Shown here: positions 1-23,007 of the stretch, in pieces
Layout of the letters: every line of letters begins with the position of its first letter
How positions within the stretch are numbered: the stretch's first letter is position 1
Virus record (IMG/VR): IMGVR_UViG_3300033149_003257
Location: 62,001 to 126,000 of that record
Source: a virus
Strand: one strand, 5' to 3'
DNA: 64,000 bases
Notes under the pieces: generated by a model
Seen by the model: the letters and a program-made list of their open reading frames with translations, nothing else
Database searches by the model: none
What the model was told of the DNA's origin: nothing
Made by a program: the position numbers and the translations under genes

Positions 1-2839
1 CCCATGTTTTTCCCAATCTTGCTGGAATATTAATATCATCTTTATTTCTTAAAACATTACTCATTAATACTTCTATATGAACAGAATCCATATCTCCTGA
101 TGGCCATTTATTAGTTATTTTTTTAAATAAATTAGTAGTATCTTTAAACAACTCTCTTCCACCAATTAATCGTTCCATATAATTAGCTTGATCTTTTAAT
201 TCACTAGTTTCTAATGACGTTTCTAAAATAATATCTCCTTGTTTATAATTTAAAACAATTTGTTTATTAATTTCCTCAAAATTTCTTTTTTGTATAATAA
301 CAGAATAATCCAAAACTATATTAAATATTAAATTATCAAACTCTATTGTCGAAATTAAATTAGATACCCATATAGAATTATCTTCAATACGAATATTATT
401 ATTCATATTATAAACATTTAAATCAAGTTTTAAAATACAATCTTTTTTACAAATTAAACCATTTTCTTCTTGTTGTATATACTCATTTAACTTATTTTCA
501 TTTATATCTAATAAAGGATCATTTTCTAAAATATCTTTTAATAAATTTTTATCAGTTATTGAAACTGCTCCGCCAAGGTGAAACGTTCGCATGATTAGCT
601 GGGTTCCTCGTTCCCCAATAGCCATCCCAGCAATTGTTCCAATATATGGAGATTTATGTCTTAACAAAAGTTTCCCATAACAGGTATGACATATTTTATA
701 AGATTTACAAAATATTGGAGATCTTAATTGAATAGTTTCTCCAACTTTATGTTCTTCCGGAATAAACTCTTCTATTCTTCCTTTATTTAAAAAATATCTT
801 CCTTTAAGTCTTTTTATTAAATCTTTATCTAATCTTACATTTAAATATTTTTTTGTTCCACAATCTTTTAAATATGGATCTGCTTCAACATTACTTAACA
901 AATAAACAAGTTTACGAGACAAATAACCTGTAGTAGACGTATTCAATGCACGGTCAATCATTCCTTTTCTACCGCCCTGAGACATCTCAAAAAATTCTTT
1001 ATTTGTTAAACCATCAGAATATGATCCACTAATTGGATCTAAAACTTTACCAGTTGGATCTGCAATAATACCCTTTGCTATTAAAATTTGTGTTGGTTGA
1101 TCCCATCCTTTTGCTGCTCCAGATTCAACTAGATCATATAATCCAGTATTTTTTAAATGTTTTATCAATATTTGTTTAGCTTTATTAATTAATATAGATG
1201 CTTGTTCAACTGTTGCTCCATTTATTTGTTTTTTTATTTCATAAATTTCATCTGGAAGTTCTATATCATCAATTTTTATAGATGGAGCAGAAATAGTAGC
1301 AAATTTAAAACCAATCTTCTCTAATTTAGAAAAGACATCTATAGCAATATTTTCACCATACTTTTCTAGAATTGTATTAATATAACTATTTATAATTTTT
1401 TTCGTTACTGTTTTATCTATAAATTCAAAATCAGGCGGAAAAGCATTATTTAAAATTGCTTTCCCCATGGTAGTATTTTTTCCTCTAAATTTAACTGGAA
1501 TATATGGATTAGTAGCATTTTCTAAATCTTCTTCATTAACTATTATAGGAGACTTATTTATCAATACATTTTTTGTTATAATATATAAACCAACAGCCAT
1601 TTCTTTAGAAAGGTCAAATGAAACATCTGTTGAAGAAGTTCCAGTTGTTCCTTTCATCATTTTCTCTTTAGCTTCTTGTTGAGCTTCATTTGTGAGAGGA
1701 TGATAAATAGCCATAACATCACCATCGAAATCAGCATTATGTTGACCAACTTGTAATGTACATACTTGAATAGTATCGCCTTCAATTAATCTAGGATAAT
1801 ATGCTCTATAAGATTCAGCATGTAAAACTGGATCTCTTTTCGCTAATACTACTCTACCTTCCATTACTGATTCTGTAGCATCAAAAAATATTTTATACAA
1901 CTCATCTGGAATAACATCTTTATTACGAATTGCTTTAATAACTCTCTGAACACTATCAACAGATAAACTAACATTATCAAAATTTTTTATTTCATCTTCC
2001 AAATTACTCTCATTAATTTTACCAGAATATAATAAACGATGAATTAAAAATGGTTCAAATAAAGTAGTAGCCATTCTAAATGGAATACCAATTTCATTAA
2101 CTTTTAAATTTGGTCCAGGAACAATAACTCCTCTTCCACTAAAATCTACTCGTTTTCCCATTAAATCAGATCGTATTAAACCACTTTTCTTTTGTATTCT
2201 ATTTTGAATAAAAGCATCATGATTAATAACTGCTTGTTGAACTCCATATGATAATAAATCAAATAATGGTCCACTTTTACTAACAGTTTTTATTTGAAAA
2301 GATTTTCTTAAAATTGATAAATATATTTCATTTAATTCGTCACTTGTCCAATTCCCAGATTCATCTTGAAAAATTGGTCTAAAATCTGGTGGAATTACAG
2401 GAACTTTACTTACAAATAAAGTTTTATCTTTATATGATCTTTGTAATAATTCTATAAAATTCTCTCTAGTTTTAGTTTCTCCTCTAAATTTTATATTTGG
2501 AAAAATATCAATAAAATTTGATAATCCTGTTACACCATCTGGATCAATTTTTAATGTTCCATCTTTATCTAAACTAAAATTTTCTTCCGTTGATATAAAT
2601 TTCTCTATTCTTCTATCTAATCTATATAAAATTTTATAAGCAGATGGATGAATAACTTCTATATTAATATCAATATATGAATATTTTTTCGTTCTATCAA
2701 TTGATCCAACTACTCCGAATATACTTTCAGAAAATAAACCCTCTGGATTAAAATCTCCACCTCTAGTAAAAAATTCTGTAGAAGTAATTGGAGTTAAATT
2801 AGATACAAATTTATTCACATCAAGAAATTTAATAAACAC
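1..2839 (-). CDS. rpoC: DNA-directed RNA polymerase beta-prime subunit, single-chain phage type (C-terminus beyond window)
   Basis: About 946 uninterrupted codons run off the left edge. The metal-binding loop NADFDGD is at about residues 368-374 (Asp370, 372 and 374 hold the catalytic Mg), preceded by a bacterial-like RSDLMGKRVDFSGR stretch. An SQGGRKGMIDRAL segment matches the bridge-helix region, followed by a CHTCYG zinc site and a trigger-loop segment GERGTQLIMRTFHLGG at about 742-757. The start is GTG with GGAG upstream, and an in-frame TAA lies directly before it, so no longer N-terminus is possible. The N-terminal Cys4 zinc domain of cellular beta-prime is absent: the protein begins at the segment equivalent to NPEGLFSESIFG. 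In phiKZ/AR9-type phages beta-prime is split into separate N and C genes; here both parts are one chain. No beta subunit lies in the window. Role: catalytic subunit of a phage-encoded RNA polymerase. Confidence 0.93.
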   Translation of the reverse strand, partial: MFIKFLDVNKFVSNLTPITSTEFFTRGGDFNPEGLFSESIFGVVGSIDRTKKYSYIDINIEVIHPSAYKILYRLDRRIEKFISTEENFSLDKDGTLKIDPDGVTGLSNFIDIFPNIKFRGETKTRENFIELLQRSYKDKTLFVSKVPVIPPDFRPIFQDESGNWTSDELNEIYLSILRKSFQIKTVSKSGPLFDLLSYGVQQAVINHDAFIQNRIQKKSGLIRSDLMGKRVDFSGRGVIVPGPNLKVNEIGIPFRMATTLFEPFLIHRLLYSGKINESNLEDEIKNFDNVSLSVDSVQRVIKAIRNKDVIPDELYKIFFDATESVMEGRVVLAKRDPVLHAESYRAYYPRLIEGDTIQVCTLQVGQHNADFDGDVMAIYHPLTNEAQQEAKEKMMKGTTGTSSTDVSFDLSKEMAVGLYIITKNVLINKSPIIVNEEDLENATNPYIPVKFRGKNTTMGKAILNNAFPPDFEFIDKTVTKKIINSYINTILEKYGENIAIDVFSKLEKIGFKFATISAPSIKIDDIELPDEIYEIKKQINGATVEQASILINKAKQILIKHLKNTGLYDLVESGAAKGWDQPTQILIAKGIIADPTGKVLDPISGSYSDGLTNKEFFEMSQGGRKGMIDRALNTSTTGYLSRKLVYLLSNVEADPYLKDCGTKKYLNVRLDKDLIKRLKGRYFLNKGRIEEFIPEEHKVGETIQLRSPIFCKSYKICHTCYGKLLLRHKSPYIGTIAGMAIGERGTQLIMRTFHLGGAVSITDKNLLKDILENDPLLDINENKLNEYIQQEENGLICKKDCILKLDLNVYNMNNNIRIEDNSIWVSNLISTIEFDNLIFNIVLDYSVIIQKRNFEEINKQIVLNYKQGDIILETSLETSELKDQANYMERLIGGRELFKDTTNLFKKITNKWPSGDMDSVHIEVLMSNVLRNKDDINIPARLGKTW

Positions 2840-2855
2840 TTATTTTTCTCCAATT

Positions 2856-3299
2856 TTATTTTCGCACATCATCTAAATAATTCTTAAACTTATCAACCAT
2901 CTTACTAATTATAGCTTTTTTAGCTGCAACATTAGCTGGTTTTGGAACTTCTTTCGAATATTTAGAATGTAATCTTTTCAATTTTGCAAGAATTACTTCC
3001 ACTTGTCCAGCATCTATACCTGGCTCTTGAAGTAATCTTTCTGCATATTTCATTGAAAATGAAATTATTTTTGGATCTATCATTCCAAGTCTATTACATA
3101 TAGAGAAAAAATAATTATTAACTTCTGGATTTCCTTTTATAACTAAAAAACATTTTGGAAACTTTCCATATAATCTATCCCTTAAATCTTTTCTCTGTAA
3201 AGCAGCTAATGTATCTTTATATGTATAAGGTGATAATACATCATTTACTTTCCTTAATAATTCTGTTAATTTAGTGAAATCTTTCTTATTATCTGACAT
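2856..3299 (-). CDS. Hypothetical helical protein preceding beta-prime
   Basis: 147 residues, mostly charged helix, with a Lys-rich C-terminus and no motif I recognise. The ATG has a GGAGGT Shine-Dalgarno. It is the first gene after a terminator and a GAACAAA promoter, and it ends 16 bp before the RNA polymerase gene, so the two form one unit. That position makes a transcription-related role possible, but this is inference from context only. Confidence 0.8.
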   Translation of the reverse strand: MSDNKKDFTKLTELLRKVNDVLSPYTYKDTLAALQRKDLRDRLYGKFPKCFLVIKGNPEVNNYFFSICNRLGMIDPKIISFSMKYAERLLQEPGIDAGQVEVILAKLKRLHSKYSKEVPKPANVAAKKAIISKMVDKFKNYLDDVRK

Positions 3300-3330
3300 A
3301 TTTTTATTACCTCCAATGTAACGTCATTTA

Positions 3331-3342
3331 TAATTTGTTCTA
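3331..3342 (-). promoter_or_regulatory. Putative promoter, GAACAAA motif
   Basis: On the minus strand the sequence reads TAGAACAAATTATAAATG. It lies between an intrinsic terminator and the 147-residue gene, with about 34 bp from the motif to the ATG. The same core occurs in at least eight other intergenic positions in the window in gene sense. Inferred promoter of the beta-prime unit. Confidence 0.6.
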
Positions 3343-3350
3343 TAATAAAC

Positions 3351-5805: not shown

Positions 5806-7257
5806 TTAAAAATCAATATTCATTAGTCTTCTTAATTCATTAATTTCAGATTCTAATTTCGAACCAAAATATAAAGTATAAAATTCTATTGAATCAACTT
5901 CTATTTTACTTAATGGAATTCCAACCATTCTTTTTCCAGTAACGGTATTAGAAAAATCTATTCTTGAAATTCTACCAACAAAATTACATATAATTTTATA
6001 TGGAAGAATTTTAGTACTAAAACCATAGAAATCTCTAGTTTTTTGTTGTATATTAATATATTCATTTACAGACTTAATTAGATAAGTCGTAGTAATTGAA
6101 GGCTGAGTTATAGGATAATAATCCAATAAAGAAAATAAATTTTTAAATTCATTAGAAAAAACTTTCTTCAAAAGATTATAAACATAAACAGATAATACTG
6201 CAGCCTGTTCTGGAGAAACAGTTTTAAAATGATTATAGGGAATATTAGTTATTCTAGATAATATAGGAAAAGCTAATGTTTCACAAATTGGAGAAATATA
6301 TTCAACATCAGAAACTCTATTTTGAAAATCAGTAATTAATTCATCTGAAGATTCTTCATTTTGTCCAATTTTAGAAATAGCATCTCTTTCAAGCTTATCA
6401 TAAATCTGTTCATATGCAATACCCTTTAATCTTCCAAGAGTATCATTATAAGCATATGTTCTTAAATTATTAACATCTAATCCTTGTATATCCTCAGTTG
6501 AAATCGAATCTTCATATATAACAGAACCCTTATATACGGACCTTAAAAACCATTTAATACTTTCATCTATTACACCAACAAAATATGTAATTGGATTTCT
6601 TCCATCACATAGTATTATAATATTATTCATAATAAAATTAAAAATTTCAATAATATGATCATCAATTGTTTTACATTGAATTGTTTTTATATAAGTCCAC
6701 ATATATTTATCTGTTAAATTATATCGAAAAGTTTTAGTTTTAATAACATTAAATATCTTATAAATTACTTGACTATTTGTTATATCTTTAGCTAATTCAT
6801 TATATATTTTTTTATGTAAATAATGTGGTAATTTTAAATTATCACTATTAGAAATAATAGAGTAAATTTTCAAATAACCAGATAATTTAATAATTTTTTC
6901 TATTTCATCTTCAGAAAATAATATTGATGATTTTTTAGCTTTTGATTCATCTACAAACTTAGACATATCTAAATCTTTTATTTCACTAAAATTATCAATA
7001 AAATATTTCATTTTATCTAAGTTAGAAAAAATAAGATTATAATAATTTTCAAAATCAGATTCTTTACAACTAAGAATCAAATTCATAAACCAATCATCAA
7101 ATTCATCTTTATATTCTTTAGATAATCGTTTTAGAAAATCTGTAATTATAAAAAATTTATTTGTTATTGATGTAGTACTTAACTCTAATTTTATTAAACT
7201 ATTATTATTTCTAACAACTCGCCAAATTTTTGAACTATCTTGTTTGAATGAAATCAA
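5806..7257 (-). CDS. Hypothetical protein, 483 residues
   Basis: Largely alpha-helical, Asn/Ile/Ser-rich, with no signal peptide and no recognised domain. The ATG has GGAGAT upstream. It sits between the broken glycosylase gene and the finger protein. Its size and lack of catalytic motifs fit a virion or inner-body protein as well as a cytoplasmic one; I cannot choose. Confidence 0.75.
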   Translation of the reverse strand: MISFKQDSSKIWRVVRNNNSLIKLELSTTSITNKFFIITDFLKRLSKEYKDEFDDWFMNLILSCKESDFENYYNLIFSNLDKMKYFIDNFSEIKDLDMSKFVDESKAKKSSILFSEDEIEKIIKLSGYLKIYSIISNSDNLKLPHYLHKKIYNELAKDITNSQVIYKIFNVIKTKTFRYNLTDKYMWTYIKTIQCKTIDDHIIEIFNFIMNNIIILCDGRNPITYFVGVIDESIKWFLRSVYKGSVIYEDSISTEDIQGLDVNNLRTYAYNDTLGRLKGIAYEQIYDKLERDAISKIGQNEESSDELITDFQNRVSDVEYISPICETLAFPILSRITNIPYNHFKTVSPEQAAVLSVYVYNLLKKVFSNEFKNLFSLLDYYPITQPSITTTYLIKSVNEYINIQQKTRDFYGFSTKILPYKIICNFVGRISRIDFSNTVTGKRMVGIPLSKIEVDSIEFYTLYFGSKLESEINELRRLMNIDF

Positions 7258-7874: not shown

Positions 7875-8097
7875 TTCCAAAAAAGAAGGATAGTGAATAA
7901 TATTATACTGCAAGTAATTTCCGCTTTCTAAAAAGTTTGTTTTGGTTTTGTCGGTTTTCTTAATTTATTTACTTCATTGGAATCACCCCCCTCAACTGAT
8001 TGAGAAAAGAAAAGAATATAACAAATAAAACTAAACCAACCACTAATTCATTTATTAATATATATAAGAAATATATTTTTAAAAGAATAAGAATAAA
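7875..8097. other. Non-coding gap with G-rich tract
   Basis: No convincing gene. On the minus strand a very strong SD-like GAGGGGGGTGATT is followed by ATG-AAG-TAA, a two-codon frame. A hydrophobic reading (VGLVLFVIFFSFLNQ) leads up to it in another frame, and SVEGGDSNEVNK continues in a third. This looks like a degraded small secreted-protein gene or a leader, but I cannot resolve it. Confidence 0.35.
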
Positions 8098-8630: not shown

Positions 8631-9809
8631 CTAACATATTTTAGTTGCTAAATTTCCAGTAGAACATTCTGTTCCAGATTTATGCCCATATTTATAATGA
8701 CAATCTTTACAAACTGAAATTGCATAATCTGGATCTAAAGCAAAAAATGGTTCTAGTTTTTGTGGTCTTGTGTGATGTACATATTCTGCTTTTTCTCCAC
8801 AATAAATGCACTTGTAATCATCTCGTTTTAATACTTCTTCTCTAAATACTTGATATTCTTCTGAAGTATAATAAAGATCATTCCCTTTATATGTTCCTTG
8901 TTCTATTTCTACTTCTTTAATAATTTGTTTTACTGTTTTTTTATAAAGTGGACAAATTTGTTTACATTCTTGTGAACAATATAAATAACCAGCATCATTT
9001 CCATTATCTCTTTCTAAACAAATAATTCTTTCATATAATTGGATATATGTTGGAGTAAACCAACCATTCATCTCTTTCGAATTAGGACAATTATGATTCT
9101 TACAATGTACTTGTATTTCTTTTTCTCCAGGCTTATCTGGATTATATCTCATCTCTTCTATTTTAGAAAAGAAAGGATATCTCTTCTTTATTTGTTTTAT
9201 AGTAATTTTATTTTTTGTCTTTCCCTTATTATATTTACTTATTTTTTTCCTTGTCTCTTTAGAAACTTTTCTTCCTTTATTAATATTACTTAACTTCTCT
9301 TTAGTTTCTTTTGAAAGTTTTTTTCCTTTATTAATTTCGCTTAATTTTTTCTTATGTCTTTCAGAGAAATTTTTCCCTTTATGAGATTCACTTAGCTTTG
9401 TTCTGGTTTTTTCAGAAATCCTTCTTCCTTTATTAGATTTACTTATTTTTTCTTTATGATCTTTAGAACGTATCTTACCCTCATTAGCTTTTCCTATTTT
9501 TTTCTTATGCTCCTCAGAGAGATTTTTACCTTTTTGAGAATTACTCATCTTCTTTCTAGTTTCTTCAGAACAAATTTTACCCTTTTTTGATCTACTCATT
9601 TTCTCTAAAGTTTCTTCACTTAAATTTTCTCTTTTATGTAATTCACCCATTTTCTTTTTAGTTTTTTCAGTATGTGTTATACCCATACTATTTTTACTAT
9701 TTTTCTTCCTTATATTTGGACATTTATTCTGAGTTTTTTCACAACACCATTTCCCATTTTTAAACTGATATTTCGCTTCTCTTCCACAACCATAGTCACA
9801 AATTATCAT
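8631..9809 (-). CDS. Free-standing HNH endonuclease with nine NUMOD3 repeats
   Basis: 392 residues. The N-terminal finger is [11 protein letters not shown] then CC and C. Nine tandem 17-residue NUMOD3-like repeats follow (type [17 protein letters not shown], about residues 45-200), then a middle Cys domain ([21 protein letters not shown]). The C-terminal HNH nuclease has [15 protein letters not shown] and [15 protein letters not shown]3 repeats bind DNA; the HNH cuts it. Such genes spread by homing into cognate intergenic sites. It overlaps the endolysin start by 4 bp. The longest of five paralogues in this window. Confidence 0.9.
9195..9665. repeat. Nine tandem 51-bp repeats encoding NUMOD3 units
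   Basis: These lie inside the HNH gene. Successive 17-codon units share S-E/K-x-T/H-x-x-K-x-S-x-x-x-K-G at protein level but differ in DNA, so they are old or selected repeats rather than a fresh slippage product. The paralogues carry 5, 3, 2 and 1 units. Confidence 0.85.
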
Positions 9810-11061: not shown

Positions 11062-12210
11062 TTATGTATCCCTTTCTCCTTCTGGGGTTGCATCAATAGC
11101 TGGAGTTGCAGGTTGAGCATCTTTCGAAGCAGTTGCATCACCAGCATCAGAAGCAGAATCACTTCCTTGCATATCAATTCCATTTGAACATTTTACAACT
11201 ATTCTATCATCAGTTTCCAAAATTATTTTATCAACTGTTTTACTATGCATTTCTTCACCAGATTCACTATACATATTTTCTGCAGCTTTAATATTTATAT
11301 CCTTATCAGATTCCATATTCATATCATCACCTGATTTATGATGCATTTTTTCGTCTGCTTCTACATATGTATTTTTATCTGATTTAACATATAAATTTCT
11401 ATCTGTCGATTGAGTCATATCTTTTCCAGATTTAATATTCATCTCATAAACAGACTCTTGATTTAATTTTTGATTAGATAAAATATTCATATCTTCCAAA
11501 GATTCATGATACATAGATTTATGAGATTTCACATGAATATTTTCTAAAGCAGTTAAATAAATTGATTTATGACTCTTTATTTCTATATCATCAGCAAACT
11601 CAGCCTGAAGTTTTCTTTCATCTATATCAATATGAAAAAAATCTCCATGAACAGTACGAATTAAAACTTTTTCTTTACCCTCTCTTTCATCAAAGAGAAT
11701 AGTCGTCATATTATCATCTATTTGATAAACACTTTCAGTATCACCAGTTGGTGGATTTGTCATTTGTCTCTTCTTGCCACCGATTTCAACTCTTTCGTCA
11801 TCCGGATCATCTGATAATACAATAACTCTACCCATATGAGTTTTTAAAACTGTCCATTTATCTTCATAATTAGTTCCAAGTTGATTTTCCGGCAGAACCA
11901 TTGTATTTTCTAAATCAAGTGCACCAAAATAATATGGATTATTTATATCTCCAGCTTCAAAAAAACACCACATCCAAGAACCAATTTTCGGAATATATGA
12001 TGATCCAGAATAATGGTGTTCAGAATCATTTTCCATATTTCGACCACCCATAGGATTATTTCCAGGACGCGCCCACACTCCAGTCTCATCACTTACATCT
12101 GGCATAAGAACAGGAATCCATATTAATACCCTACCAAACTTCTCTGGATCTTTGTTATTTACAACTTTACATCTATAAAACCCAAAAAGTGGTCCGGAAA
12201 GATCATTCAT
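11062..12210 (-). CDS. gp5/VgrG-like baseplate hub spike
   Basis: 382 residues. The N-terminal OB-fold region (about 1-130: GFYRCKVVNNKDPEKFGR, VWARPG, PKIGSWMWCFFEAGD, YYFGALD) is typical of gp5/VgrG. From about residue 195 there are short repeats of the type NIKSGKDM, YVKSDKNTY, MNMESDKDI, which build the trimeric beta-helix spike. T4 gp5 carries a lysozyme domain between OB and helix; here it is missing and the amidase is a separate gene close by. It punctures the outer cell layer at the tail tip. Confidence 0.88.
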   Translation of the reverse strand: MNDLSGPLFGFYRCKVVNNKDPEKFGRVLIWIPVLMPDVSDETGVWARPGNNPMGGRNMENDSEHHYSGSSYIPKIGSWMWCFFEAGDINNPYYFGALDLENTMVLPENQLGTNYEDKWTVLKTHMGRVIVLSDDPDDERVEIGGKKRQMTNPPTGDTESVYQIDDNMTTILFDEREGKEKVLIRTVHGDFFHIDIDERKLQAEFADDIEIKSHKSIYLTALENIHVKSHKSMYHESLEDMNILSNQKLNQESVYEMNIKSGKDMTQSTDRNLYVKSDKNTYVEADEKMHHKSGDDMNMESDKDINIKAAENMYSESGEEMHSKTVDKIILETDDRIVVKCSNGIDMQGSDSASDAGDATASKDAQPATPAIDATPEGERDT

Positions 12211-12221
12211 TTAAAATATCC

Positions 12222-13244
12222 TTACAAACAAATCCTATTTGCTAAATTTCCAGTAGAACATTCTGTTCCAGTTTTATGTCCAAATAAAAAATGACAATTC
12301 TCACACGTAGATATAGCATAATCTGGATCTAAAGCAAAAAATGGTTCTAATTTTTGTGGACGAGTATGATGAACATGTTCTGCTTGTTCTCCACAATAAA
12401 CACATTTATAATCATCTCGTTTTAACACTTCTTGTCTAAATATTTGATATTCTTCTTGATTATAATAAATTTCATCAGATAATATATCATTTTTTATTTT
12501 TAAATTATATAAAGGACAAACATTTTTACATTTTTCTGAACAATAAAAATAACATCCTCCATTACCATAATCTTTTTCTAATTGTCTAATTCTTTCATAT
12601 AATTGTGAACCAGTTGGAGTAAACCAACCTCCCATCTCTTTTGAATTAGTACAATTATGATTTTTACAATGTACTTGAATTTCTTTTTCTCCAGGTTTAT
12701 CTGGATTATATCTCATCTCTTCTATTTTAGAAAAGAAAGGATATCTTTTTTGTATTTGTTTAATATTTAGCTTTCTTGATATGCTTATATTTTTTCCAAT
12801 TCTTCTTATTTTTTCTGATTTATTTATATCTAAACCTTTATTCCATGGAATAATACCTTCTTTATCTTTGGCCATTTTCATAATTATATTATTATTATTT
12901 TTTGTTAATCCTTTATTCCACGCTACACGTCCTTTTAAAGAATTAGATAATTTCATTCTGGTTTCCAAACTTAAATTTTCTTTTTTACTTGACTCACTTA
13001 ATTTTCTCCTAGTTTCTTTACTTAAATTCTCTTTTTTAGATGATTCACTAAGTCTCTTCAACGTTTCTTCTGAAAAACAATTCTTCACTTCCTTATTCCA
13101 GGGTATGTTCCCTTTTACTTTTTCTCTTTGTATTTCAATTTTTCCCGGGCAACTATTAAAATTTTCACTACAACACCATTTTGTCATTCCTTTTCTGGGA
13201 GGATATTTTGCTTCTCTTCCACATCCGTAATCACATAAAATCAT
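12222..13244 (-). CDS. Free-standing HNH endonuclease, three NUMOD3 repeats
   Basis: 340 residues. Same plan as the paralogue at 8631: N-terminal Cys finger ([11 protein letters not shown]), three NUMOD3 units, then a linker with two PWNKGL-type segments, the middle [20 protein letters not shown] domain and HNH (CVYCGEQAE, HHTRPQ, CENCHFLFGH). It lies between the baseplate hub and an unknown virion-type gene, separated by about 12-15 bp on each side. Confidence 0.9.
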   Translation of the reverse strand: MILCDYGCGREAKYPPRKGMTKWCCSENFNSCPGKIEIQREKVKGNIPWNKEVKNCFSEETLKRLSESSKKENLSKETRRKLSESSKKENLSLETRMKLSNSLKGRVAWNKGLTKNNNNIIMKMAKDKEGIIPWNKGLDINKSEKIRRIGKNISISRKLNIKQIQKRYPFFSKIEEMRYNPDKPGEKEIQVHCKNHNCTNSKEMGGWFTPTGSQLYERIRQLEKDYGNGGCYFYCSEKCKNVCPLYNLKIKNDILSDEIYYNQEEYQIFRQEVLKRDDYKCVYCGEQAEHVHHTRPQKLEPFFALDPDYAISTCENCHFLFGHKTGTECSTGNLANRICL

Positions 13245-14568: not shown

Positions 14569-15528
14569 TCAACAAATCCTATTTGCTAAATTTCCAGTAG
14601 AACATTCTGTTCCAGTTTTATGACCATATTTATAATGACATTCTTTACAAACAGATATAGCATAATCAGGATCTAGTGAAAAAAATGGTTCTAATTTTTG
14701 TGGACGAGTATGATGAACATGTTCTGCTTTTTCTCCACAATAAATACATTTGTAATCATCTCGTTTTAGAACAATTTCTCTAAATGTTTGATATTCTTCT
14801 GAAGAATATAACTCTTCTATTTCATAAGTTCCTTGTTGAATTTCTACTTCTTTTATAAGTTGATTTACAGTTTTACCATAAAGAGGACAAATATTTTTAC
14901 ATTCTTTTGAACAATAGAAATAAGAAGAACAATTTCCCCAATCATTTTCTAATTGTCTAATTCTTTCATATAATTGGATATATGTTGGAGTAAACCAACC
15001 ACCTTGTTCTTTTGAATTAGGACAATTATGGTTTTTACAATGTACTTGTATTTCTTTTTCTCCAAGTTTATCTGGATTATATCTCATCTCTTCAATTCTA
15101 GAAAAAAACGGATATCTTTTCTTTATTTGTTTAATAGTTAATCTTAAACCCTTATGTCCTTTATGAGACTCACTTAATTTTCTCCTAGTTTCTTTACTTA
15201 AATTCTCTTTTTTAGAAGATTCCCTCATCTTTTCTATAGTTTTTTCACTACATTTATAACCTATATGAGACTCACTTAACTTTCTTCTAGTTTCTTTACT
15301 CTTTACACATCCTCTTAAAGCATTACTAATCTTTATTCTAGTTTCTTCAGAACAACTATGCCCTTTATGAGACTCACTCATCTTTTTTCTAACTATTTCA
15401 GAATGGTTTTTACCTTTAAATTTCTTTCTTACTTCCGAACATTTATTTACATTTTTTTCACAACACCATTTCCCATTTTTAAATTGATATTTTGCTTCTT
15501 TTCCACAACCATAATCACATAATTTCAT
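14569..15528 (-). CDS. Free-standing HNH endonuclease, five NUMOD3 repeats
   Basis: 319 residues from MKLCDYGCGKEAKY. Five NUMOD3 units (for example SKETRRKLSESHIGYK), the shared middle Cys domain, then HNH with [25 protein letters not shown]. An in-frame TTG 15 bp upstream lies inside the preceding gene and is less likely. The start is 2 bp past that gene's stop (TGA at 15530-15532), the tight insertion seen for all copies. Confidence 0.9.
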   Translation of the reverse strand: MKLCDYGCGKEAKYQFKNGKWCCEKNVNKCSEVRKKFKGKNHSEIVRKKMSESHKGHSCSEETRIKISNALRGCVKSKETRRKLSESHIGYKCSEKTIEKMRESSKKENLSKETRRKLSESHKGHKGLRLTIKQIKKRYPFFSRIEEMRYNPDKLGEKEIQVHCKNHNCPNSKEQGGWFTPTYIQLYERIRQLENDWGNCSSYFYCSKECKNICPLYGKTVNQLIKEVEIQQGTYEIEELYSSEEYQTFREIVLKRDDYKCIYCGEKAEHVHHTRPQKLEPFFSLDPDYAISVCKECHYKYGHKTGTECSTGNLANRIC

Positions 15529-15529
15529 T

Positions 15530-16141
15530 TCAAATTCCAGCAATACTTAATCCTGGATAATTATCTACAGACCACTCACAATTTGTTTCTTGAATTGATA
15601 ATCTAGAATTTAAAACTTCTAAATCATCATTATCTAAATATTTCGAATAATTATTTAAATAAAATTGATAATCACCTTTCACAAGACTAATAGGAATATT
15701 TAAATATCCATTATGAAATTTTTCATGCATTGTTTTTATTAAAGTAACATAACCAATTTTATTCATAAAATGTAATTTAATTGCATCTAAAGAAATATCA
15801 AAAGAAGAAAATTCTTCATTGTTTTCAATCTTTTTATTTATAATAGATTTTACTAAAACAAACAAACTCGGAACATGATGATGTAATTGAATATCAACTT
15901 CACTAATTTTTTCATGTGTAATCATACAAGTATTAATTCCAAGAATATCAATTATATAATCTCTCCATAATTTATATTCTATACTATTTCTTATCATATT
16001 CTCACATTTTTTTATAAACTTATTATAGTCACTTTCACTTTGAAAATTTTTAATTCTCAACGATAATCGAAATGGATACTGGTCACTATATAACTCCAAT
16101 CCCTCAACATTTGATTTAATTGTTATATCTTCTGTTTCCAT
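15530..16141 (-). CDS. Putative HNH-like protein, unrelated to the NUMOD3 family
   Basis: 203 residues. A Cys-x-Ile-Thr-His segment (INTCMITHEKI) is followed by IQLHHHVPSL and later MHEKFHNG, an arrangement like a Cys/His metal site of beta-beta-alpha nucleases. No NUMOD repeats. The second Cys pair is not obvious, so the nuclease call is tentative; a structural zinc protein is the alternative. Confidence 0.45.
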   Translation of the reverse strand: METEDITIKSNVEGLELYSDQYPFRLSLRIKNFQSESDYNKFIKKCENMIRNSIEYKLWRDYIIDILGINTCMITHEKISEVDIQLHHHVPSLFVLVKSIINKKIENNEEFSSFDISLDAIKLHFMNKIGYVTLIKTMHEKFHNGYLNIPISLVKGDYQFYLNNYSKYLDNDDLEVLNSRLSIQETNCEWSVDNYPGLSIAGI

Positions 16142-22128: not shown

Positions 22129-23007
22129 TTAACAAATTCTATTAGCTAAATTTCCAGTGTTACATTCATCTTTATGTCCGTACTTGTAATGACATTCTTT
22201 ACAAACAGAAATTCCAAAGTCTGGATCTAATGAGAAAAATGGTTCTAATTTTTGTGGACGAGTATGATGAACATGTTCTGCTTTTTCTCCACAATAAACA
22301 CACTTATAATCATCTCGTTTTAGAACAATTTCTCTAAATGTTTGATATTCTTCTTGATTATATTGAAAACCACTCCCTTTATAAGTTCCCTGTTTTATTT
22401 CTACTTCTTTTATTAATTGTGATACTTTTTTACCATAAAGAGGACAAATATTTTTACATTCTTTTGAACAATAGAAATTCGATTCACCAAATCCTTTTGG
22501 TTTTTCAATAGCTCTTATTCTAGCACTTATTTGATCATTAGTTGGAGTAAACCAACCACCTTGTTCTTTCGAATTAAGACAATTATGATTTTTACAATGT
22601 ACTTGTATTTCTTTTTCTCCAGGTTTATCTGGATTATATCTCATTTCTTCTATTTTAGAAAAAAATGGATATTTTTCTCGAATCATTTCAATTGTAAATT
22701 TATTTGGTCCCTGTCTTCCTTTACAACTCTTAACTAATTTTTTGGAATACTTTTGAATTCTTATATCGTTTTCTTTATTTAAACCCTTATTCCATGGTTT
22801 CTTACCAAACATTGGATTTGATATTCCAATATTCTTATTTCTTAATCTTTTAATTGTTTCTTTCGAATGTTTTCTATTTACAGAAGATATTCTAAATTTT
22901 TCTCGATTAACTGGACAACTTTGCCAATTCTTTTCACAACAATATTTTTTAATATGTTTAAGAAAATATTTTCCTTCTCTTCCACAACCATAATAACATA
23001 ATTGCAT
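22129..23007 (-). CDS. Free-standing HNH endonuclease, single NUMOD3 unit
   Basis: 292 residues. N-terminal Cys finger (CYYGCGREGKY), one NUMOD3-like unit (HSKETIKRLRNKNIG), a PWNKGLNKEN linker, the middle Cys domain and the HNH (CVYCGEKAE, HHTRPQ, CKECHYKYGH). Inserted 2 bp after the ribonucleotide reductase stop, a common homing target neighbourhood. Confidence 0.9.
   Translation of the reverse strand: MQLCYYGCGREGKYFLKHIKKYCCEKNWQSCPVNREKFRISSVNRKHSKETIKRLRNKNIGISNPMFGKKPWNKGLNKENDIRIQKYSKKLVKSCKGRQGPNKFTIEMIREKYPFFSKIEEMRYNPDKPGEKEIQVHCKNHNCLNSKEQGGWFTPTNDQISARIRAIEKPKGFGESNFYCSKECKNICPLYGKKVSQLIKEVEIKQGTYKGSGFQYNQEEYQTFREIVLKRDDYKCVYCGEKAEHVHHTRPQKLEPFFSLDPDFGISVCKECHYKYGHKDECNTGNLANRIC

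Follow-up and report, generated by a model that had tools for sequence, protein, structure and literature searches.

The multi-subunit RNAP-encoding Caudovirales (mReC) are metagenomic phages defined by an unsplit β' subunit; the published set comprises 97 contigs (Weinheimer & Aylward 2020, PMC7481178). A term search of the main text of that report brought up neither two RNAPs per genome nor gene splitting nor virion types, and jumbo-phage RNAPs were omitted from the mReC tree (PMC7598289). Jumbo phages of the phiKZ and AR9 type have a virion and a non-virion RNAP; according to a 2026 review, it is unknown whether duplication or two separate acquisitions gave rise to them (PMC13282480). No virion RNAP had been purified as of a 2020 review (PMC7598289). 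AR9 early promoters read AAATATATATTAT-(6N)-G and late promoters AACA-(6N)-TA/G (PMC5312081), and residues 184-264 of AR9 gp226 form a σ2-like domain (PMC9209446).

The present analysis establishes solidly a phage lineage with two whole RNAPs, one of them a relative of the virion RNAP, and with a gp226-type protein adjoining. Relative to the open-licence literature, what is new is this virion-RNAP relative beside a second whole RNAP. The window analysed is a stretch of 64,000 nucleotides, positions 62001-126000 of an IMG/VR virus record (G000; 151,964 bp, 25% GC, termed genome in the coordinates below). The β'/β pair that begins in the window is called copy B, and a second pair, left of the window, copy A.

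The copy B β' gene (window 1..2839, minus strand; genome 61843-64839) is unsplit, with 998 codons and then a stop. Codons 1-946 lie in the window; the open frame exits the left edge and ends at genome 61843. The gene for copy B β (genome 57740-61831, minus strand; 1363 aa, unsplit) lies 11 bp downstream, outside the window. The left flank, where a sequence-only reading of the window had proposed to look for the C-terminus and rpoB, thus holds both. That reading was also right that a single frame carries both motif regions: NADFDGD starts at residue 368, CHTCYG starts at residue 717, and the trigger loop is intact. The distance between the two motifs, which it gave as 370 residues, measures 349. 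Pfam matches to Rpb1_2 (2e-30), Rpb1_5 (5e-23), Rpb1_3, and Rpb1_1 are in collinear order. The N-terminal Cys4 zinc ribbon is indeed absent, and a short linker, GLFSESIFGVVGSIDRTKKYSYIDINIEVIHP, occupies its place; a second zinc site (C660, C711, C717, C720) is retained. Lack of the ribbon is not a peculiarity of this protein; jumbo-phage virion RNAPs have the same lack. This architecture is far beyond chance, because three relatives with 52-58% identity keep it. An AlphaFold model of the protein had a pLDDT of 66 and was left unused. The frame in the window encodes β' of an RNAP of bacterial type made up of two polypeptides.

Copy A comprises an unsplit β' that keeps the zinc ribbon (genome 29793-32498; 901 aa) and an unsplit β (genome 26752-29781; 1009 aa), so that all four core subunits are whole within one 152-kb record. 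The sequence-only reading spoke of a T4-type replisome, and some T4-type genes are present: a terminase of the PF03237 family (genome 13918-15540), a UvsX-like gene, and a gp44-like clamp loader. The major capsid protein PF07068 had no match in the record, which may be incomplete. A search of genome contigs returned three matches, all in metagenome-assembled genomes (MAGs), with no host among them.

IMG/VR contains relatives of both copies. A single-protein scan for copy A gave no match; an alignment query did find relatives, and the alignment scan matched 394, the best 80 being retained. By reciprocal comparison, 29 of these best 80 of 394 are type-B loci and 50 are type-A loci, with L088 as an outlier. 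Both types occur together on at least 15 contigs, counted by contig name among the same best 80. The type-B operon has the order [483 aa]-[147 aa]-β'-β-[201 aa], and its small genes recur among the best 80 of 394 relatives: 483 aa in 24 of 29 type-B loci, 147 aa (upstream of β') in 26, and 201 aa in 25. In the window, the 147-aa gene (2856..3299, minus strand) is the first of the B operon. A baseplate hub or tail-lysozyme-like gene (window 11062..12210, minus strand; phrog_430, 1.7e-9) is a neighbour, and the B operon therefore adjoins structural genes. The type-A operon reads ThiF-β'-β-folE2, with ThiF in up to 48 and folE2 in up to 43 of the 50 type-A loci (best 80 of 394).

Several side observations concern these loci. 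The folE2 gene (genome 25858-26733, left of the window) stands beside the A-type β, as in 43 of 50 type-A loci (best 80 of 394); together with QueD-, QueE-, and QueC-like frames recognised by eye elsewhere in the record, it suggests 7-deazaguanine DNA modification. A repeated gene family with similar protein starts has five listed copies (window 8631-9809, 12222-13244, 14569-15543, and 22129-23007; genome 13046-13918), which may be free-standing homing endonucleases. In locus L037 (7282-11917), a type-B β' is broken at NADFDGD by an apparent split intein; the C-terminal part starts ...YDLTVEDNYTFASSDGVFV, and a free-standing HNH-like endonuclease ORF sits between the two halves. Locus L094 (570-6986), from a MAG titled UBP16, has a 2138-aa frame matching β plus β', either a fused rpoBC or a phage gene, and related genomes have frames of about 2000-2370 aa containing β'. 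The Bacteroidetes MAG WAS_Bin_9 (L093 and G001) holds several phage-type RNAP fragments on separate contigs, probably phage contigs binned along.

Bacterial β' chains in the PDB match copy B β' with E about 1e-60 to 1e-67. As clear homologues, they could speak for recent acquisition of a bacterial rpoC, or for bacterial contamination of the contig. In the trees, cellular RNAPs were represented by ten bacterial sequences alone; entries labelled phage that proved to be bacterial contaminants (Acinetobacter MD-2021a and others) served as bacterial rows. In the β' trees, bacteria and some isolate-phage enzymes form one side (support 100), and copy B falls within a clade of metagenomic phage enzymes (support 100). 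A bacterial source is refuted for the sampled bacteria by this position outside all of them. Copy B does not branch inside a bacterial genus, and it has no bacterial operon neighbours; the genes around it belong to phage tail, terminase, and recombination functions. An α subunit gene was sought in the record and not found. The chance of a bacterial origin is accordingly negligible, and the sequence-only reading of a phage-encoded enzyme outside bacteria stands. Its further expectation, branching with phage enzymes, is borne out at once for the metagenomic clade; for the virion RNAPs it is borne out only once β is added.

Which jumbo-phage enzymes do the two copies resemble? Profiles of A and B were run against phiKZ, AR9, MarsHill, LPJP1, and JD-Fnp1. 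The AR9 pieces and some MarsHill pieces were identified by record labels, and the remaining jumbo pieces were assigned through similarity to labelled ones and the published phiKZ gene list (PMC8287921). Five virion β' N-terminal (or unsplit) pieces score 96-198 bits with B, 24-60 with A, and below 42 with bacteria; four virion β N pieces score 82-207 with B and 21-104 with A. Most non-virion pieces score higher with A than with B, often by little; for AR9, the A and B bits are 88.6 versus 16.1 (β N) and 107 versus 86 (β' N). Virion β' C pieces do not discriminate between the profiles. Moreover, the linker that replaces the ribbon, IFGxxGSxxR...YI.L....HP with small variations, is common to B and all five virion-type RNAPs examined. 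The Cys4 ribbon is retained in copy A, the phiKZ nvRNAP, and the JD-Fnp1 nvRNAP. Replacement of ribbon by linker is an independent, discrete character for kinship between B and virion RNAPs.

The trees bear on an alternative: that A and B arose by internal duplication inside the mReC lineage, independently of the jumbo pair, so that a two-polymerase programme arose twice. The β'-only tree leaves the deep order unresolved and joins virion and non-virion RNAPs weakly (74/33), with long branches meeting; with one jumbo group included, β'-only trees join A and B weakly (76/82 and 80/75). Both results lean toward internal duplication. Against it, B groups with virion RNAPs in the β tree (99) and in the concatenated β+β' tree (99/98), the latter with just two to three jumbo sequences per group. 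That concatenated tree also joins A to the non-virion RNAPs (72/85, without star), and a tree constrained to join virion with non-virion RNAPs loses 18.5 log units (p-AU 0.064). The B profiles favour virion pieces for both subunits, B and the virion RNAPs share the ribbon-replacing linker, and a gp226/gp68-type subunit is present in both kinds of phage. Separate duplication is therefore unlikely. Sequence comparison gives strong evidence that copy B, although uncut, shares ancestry with the virion RNAP of jumbo phages like phiKZ and AR9; copy A, with weaker support, is probably the counterpart of their non-virion RNAP.

Some type-B β' are cut just past the trigger loop, at about residues 776-784, near the ends of the virion-type β' pieces of AR9, MarsHill, phiKZ, and JD-Fnp1. 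Split and unsplit states thus interchange in the group, as they would if the lineage descended from phages with split RNAP genes that were later re-fused. However, the cut genes are dispersed on the tree between unsplit ones and need at least three changes, which fits repeated fission; the unsplit genes are collinear with the bacterial order; and, since A and B each have a whole β', exact fusion would have had to happen several times. Re-fusion is quite improbable.

The 483-aa gene (window 5806-7257, minus strand) points to a second link with the jumbo phages. PHROG gave no match to its product, Pfam gave no more than a sub-threshold match, and a PDB sequence search with its profile returned nothing meaningful. 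Across seven whole phage genomes, the profile had one match at E<=1, to the specificity subunit of the AR9 non-virion RNAP (E 0.011), which is gp225 in RefSeq numbering, gp226 in the papers, and identical to PDB 7s01_A. An AlphaFold model (pLDDT 80), searched with Foldseek against the PDB, matched AR9 gp226 (7um0_A/7s01_A; E 6.5e-6, prob 1.00) and the phiKZ nvRNAP (7ogp_B; E 0.15, prob 0.99), with all others at E>1. Global TM-scores are low (0.40-0.44): the domains match, not the whole arrangement. An hhalign comparison with AR9 gp226 and six phage relatives gave E=3e-6 (an earlier run with the global option, E=0.003), and its score was 55.6, whereas none of 60 column shuffles exceeded 27.2; reversed controls were also run. 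The alignment pairs residues 163-244 with gp226 residues 184-265, which span the σ2-like domain. The protein is thus predicted to be a distant, σ-like promoter-specificity subunit of the gp226/gp68 type. No second σ-like gene was found among the ORFs of the record.

With which polymerase would this subunit work? The 483-aa gene adjoins B, not A: 24 of 29 type-B loci have it ahead of the B operon, and it was not found in the type-A loci (best 80 of 394). The protein might on this ground be the specificity subunit of B itself, making B a stand-alone holoenzyme module, a possible though rather doubtful arrangement. The sole recognised homologues of the protein are parts of non-virion RNAPs, its gene lies on the opposite strand in L034, and the motif upstream of it differs from that of the B operon.

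That motif resembles an AR9 early promoter: TTATATATATTAATAAAT (window 8050..8067, minus strand). In this genome it precedes the 483-aa gene by 810 nt, and small ORFs intervene. The AR9 record likewise has an annotated early promoter preceding gp226. The B operon is preceded, at a distance of about 36 nt, by TATAGAACAAATTATAAAT (window 3325..3345, minus strand), a late-promoter-like motif that includes the AACA of AR9 late promoters; here AACA is followed by 6N and then AAAT, whereas AR9 has 6N and then TA/G. The word AGAACAAA is found ahead of the B operon and the terminase gene, among others. It occurs in 9 of 61 upstream regions of its own genome (0.6 expected) and, along with ribosome-binding sites, is one of the words most enriched in the upstream regions of the record. 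Among relatives, 15 of 20 loci have YTATATAT ahead of the σ-like gene (0.7 in shuffles, at most 3) and 11 of 20 have GAACAAA ahead of the B operon (1.5 in shuffles, at most 5). Both counts greatly exceed the shuffles but are descriptive and no independent confirmation, both patterns having been picked after viewing the same loci. AACA is four letters only, and TATATAT is common at 25% GC. Type-A loci have few of either motif, and none was seen directly before the A operon.

These elements suggest a circuit like that of AR9. Copy B would be a late product that is packaged in virions and delivered by injection. It would then read TATATAT-type early promoters, including the one before the σ-like gene. 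The σ-like subunit, made early, would pair with copy A, and together they would read GAACAAA-type late promoters, including those of the terminase gene and the B operon. Reading of the B operon by A would close the circle, as in AR9. Packaging, timing, the matching of polymerases to motifs, and the pairing of the σ-like subunit with A are all inferred by analogy. The explanation as a whole (B as unsplit kin of the virion RNAP, A as non-virion counterpart, a gp226/gp68-type subunit, and an AR9-like circuit) is likely to be right.

The lineage is also relevant to the question of whether the two jumbo RNAPs existed before their genes were split. A and B match different jumbo enzymes; therefore, the two RNAPs were probably separate before the giant-phage genes were split. 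A more far-reaching proposal, which we regard as evenly balanced, is that jumbo phages and this lineage inherited the same ancient pair of RNAPs: splitting would have come later than the duplication or double acquisition, later than the σ-like subunit, and later than the early/late circuit, with the unsplit state kept here. Type A and B branches are shorter than those of the jumbo enzymes, and whole-gene relatives of both RNAPs in one genome offer a tree for testing duplication versus two acquisitions. The genes further suggest that splitting is unnecessary for a virion-type RNAP, and the two-chain enzymes are simpler subjects for structural work.

How does this phage compare with described ones? 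An unsplit phage β', which the sequence-only reading considered unusual, has precedents in the published mReC lineage (PMC7481178) and in cultured phages RHph_Y65, Carin-5, GN1, and Va2. Likeness to mReC, judged here by features rather than by clustering with the 97 published contigs, covers several traits: these are uncultured tailed phages, many in IMG/VR; β and β' are each at least 800 aa with NADxDGD; the RNAP branches deeply, outside bacteria; and the terminase is PF03237. The PF07068 capsid protein reported for mReC (PMC7481178) may be a difference: it was not found in this possibly incomplete record. The isolates Rhizobium RHph_Y65, Yersinia GN1, Cobetia Carin-5, Vibrio Va2, and 1.031.O also have an unsplit β' of more than 1000 aa. 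They differ in branching with bacteria (100) and in the single RNAP found in each; RHph_Y65, GN1, and Va2, those examined, keep the zinc ribbon, unlike copy B.

Fusobacterium phage JD-Fnp1 (ON464759) has a virion-type β' joined across the active site (930 aa) and a second, non-virion-type set. In contrast to the present lineage, it has a non-virion-type β' in two pieces (485 + 643 aa), and the virion-type β' stops after the trigger loop. (The latter, L091:10001-12793, is annotated as an α subunit, and perhaps represents an intermediate state of splitting.) Finally, the jumbo phages phiKZ and AR9 (PMC7598289, PMC9209446, PMC8287921) resemble this lineage in their two β/β' sets, α not found, a gp226/gp68-type subunit, a virion β' that lacks the zinc ribbon, and similar early and late motifs. 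They differ in subunit number: the jumbo virion RNAP has at least five polypeptides and the non-virion RNAP at least four, whereas each copy here consists of two.
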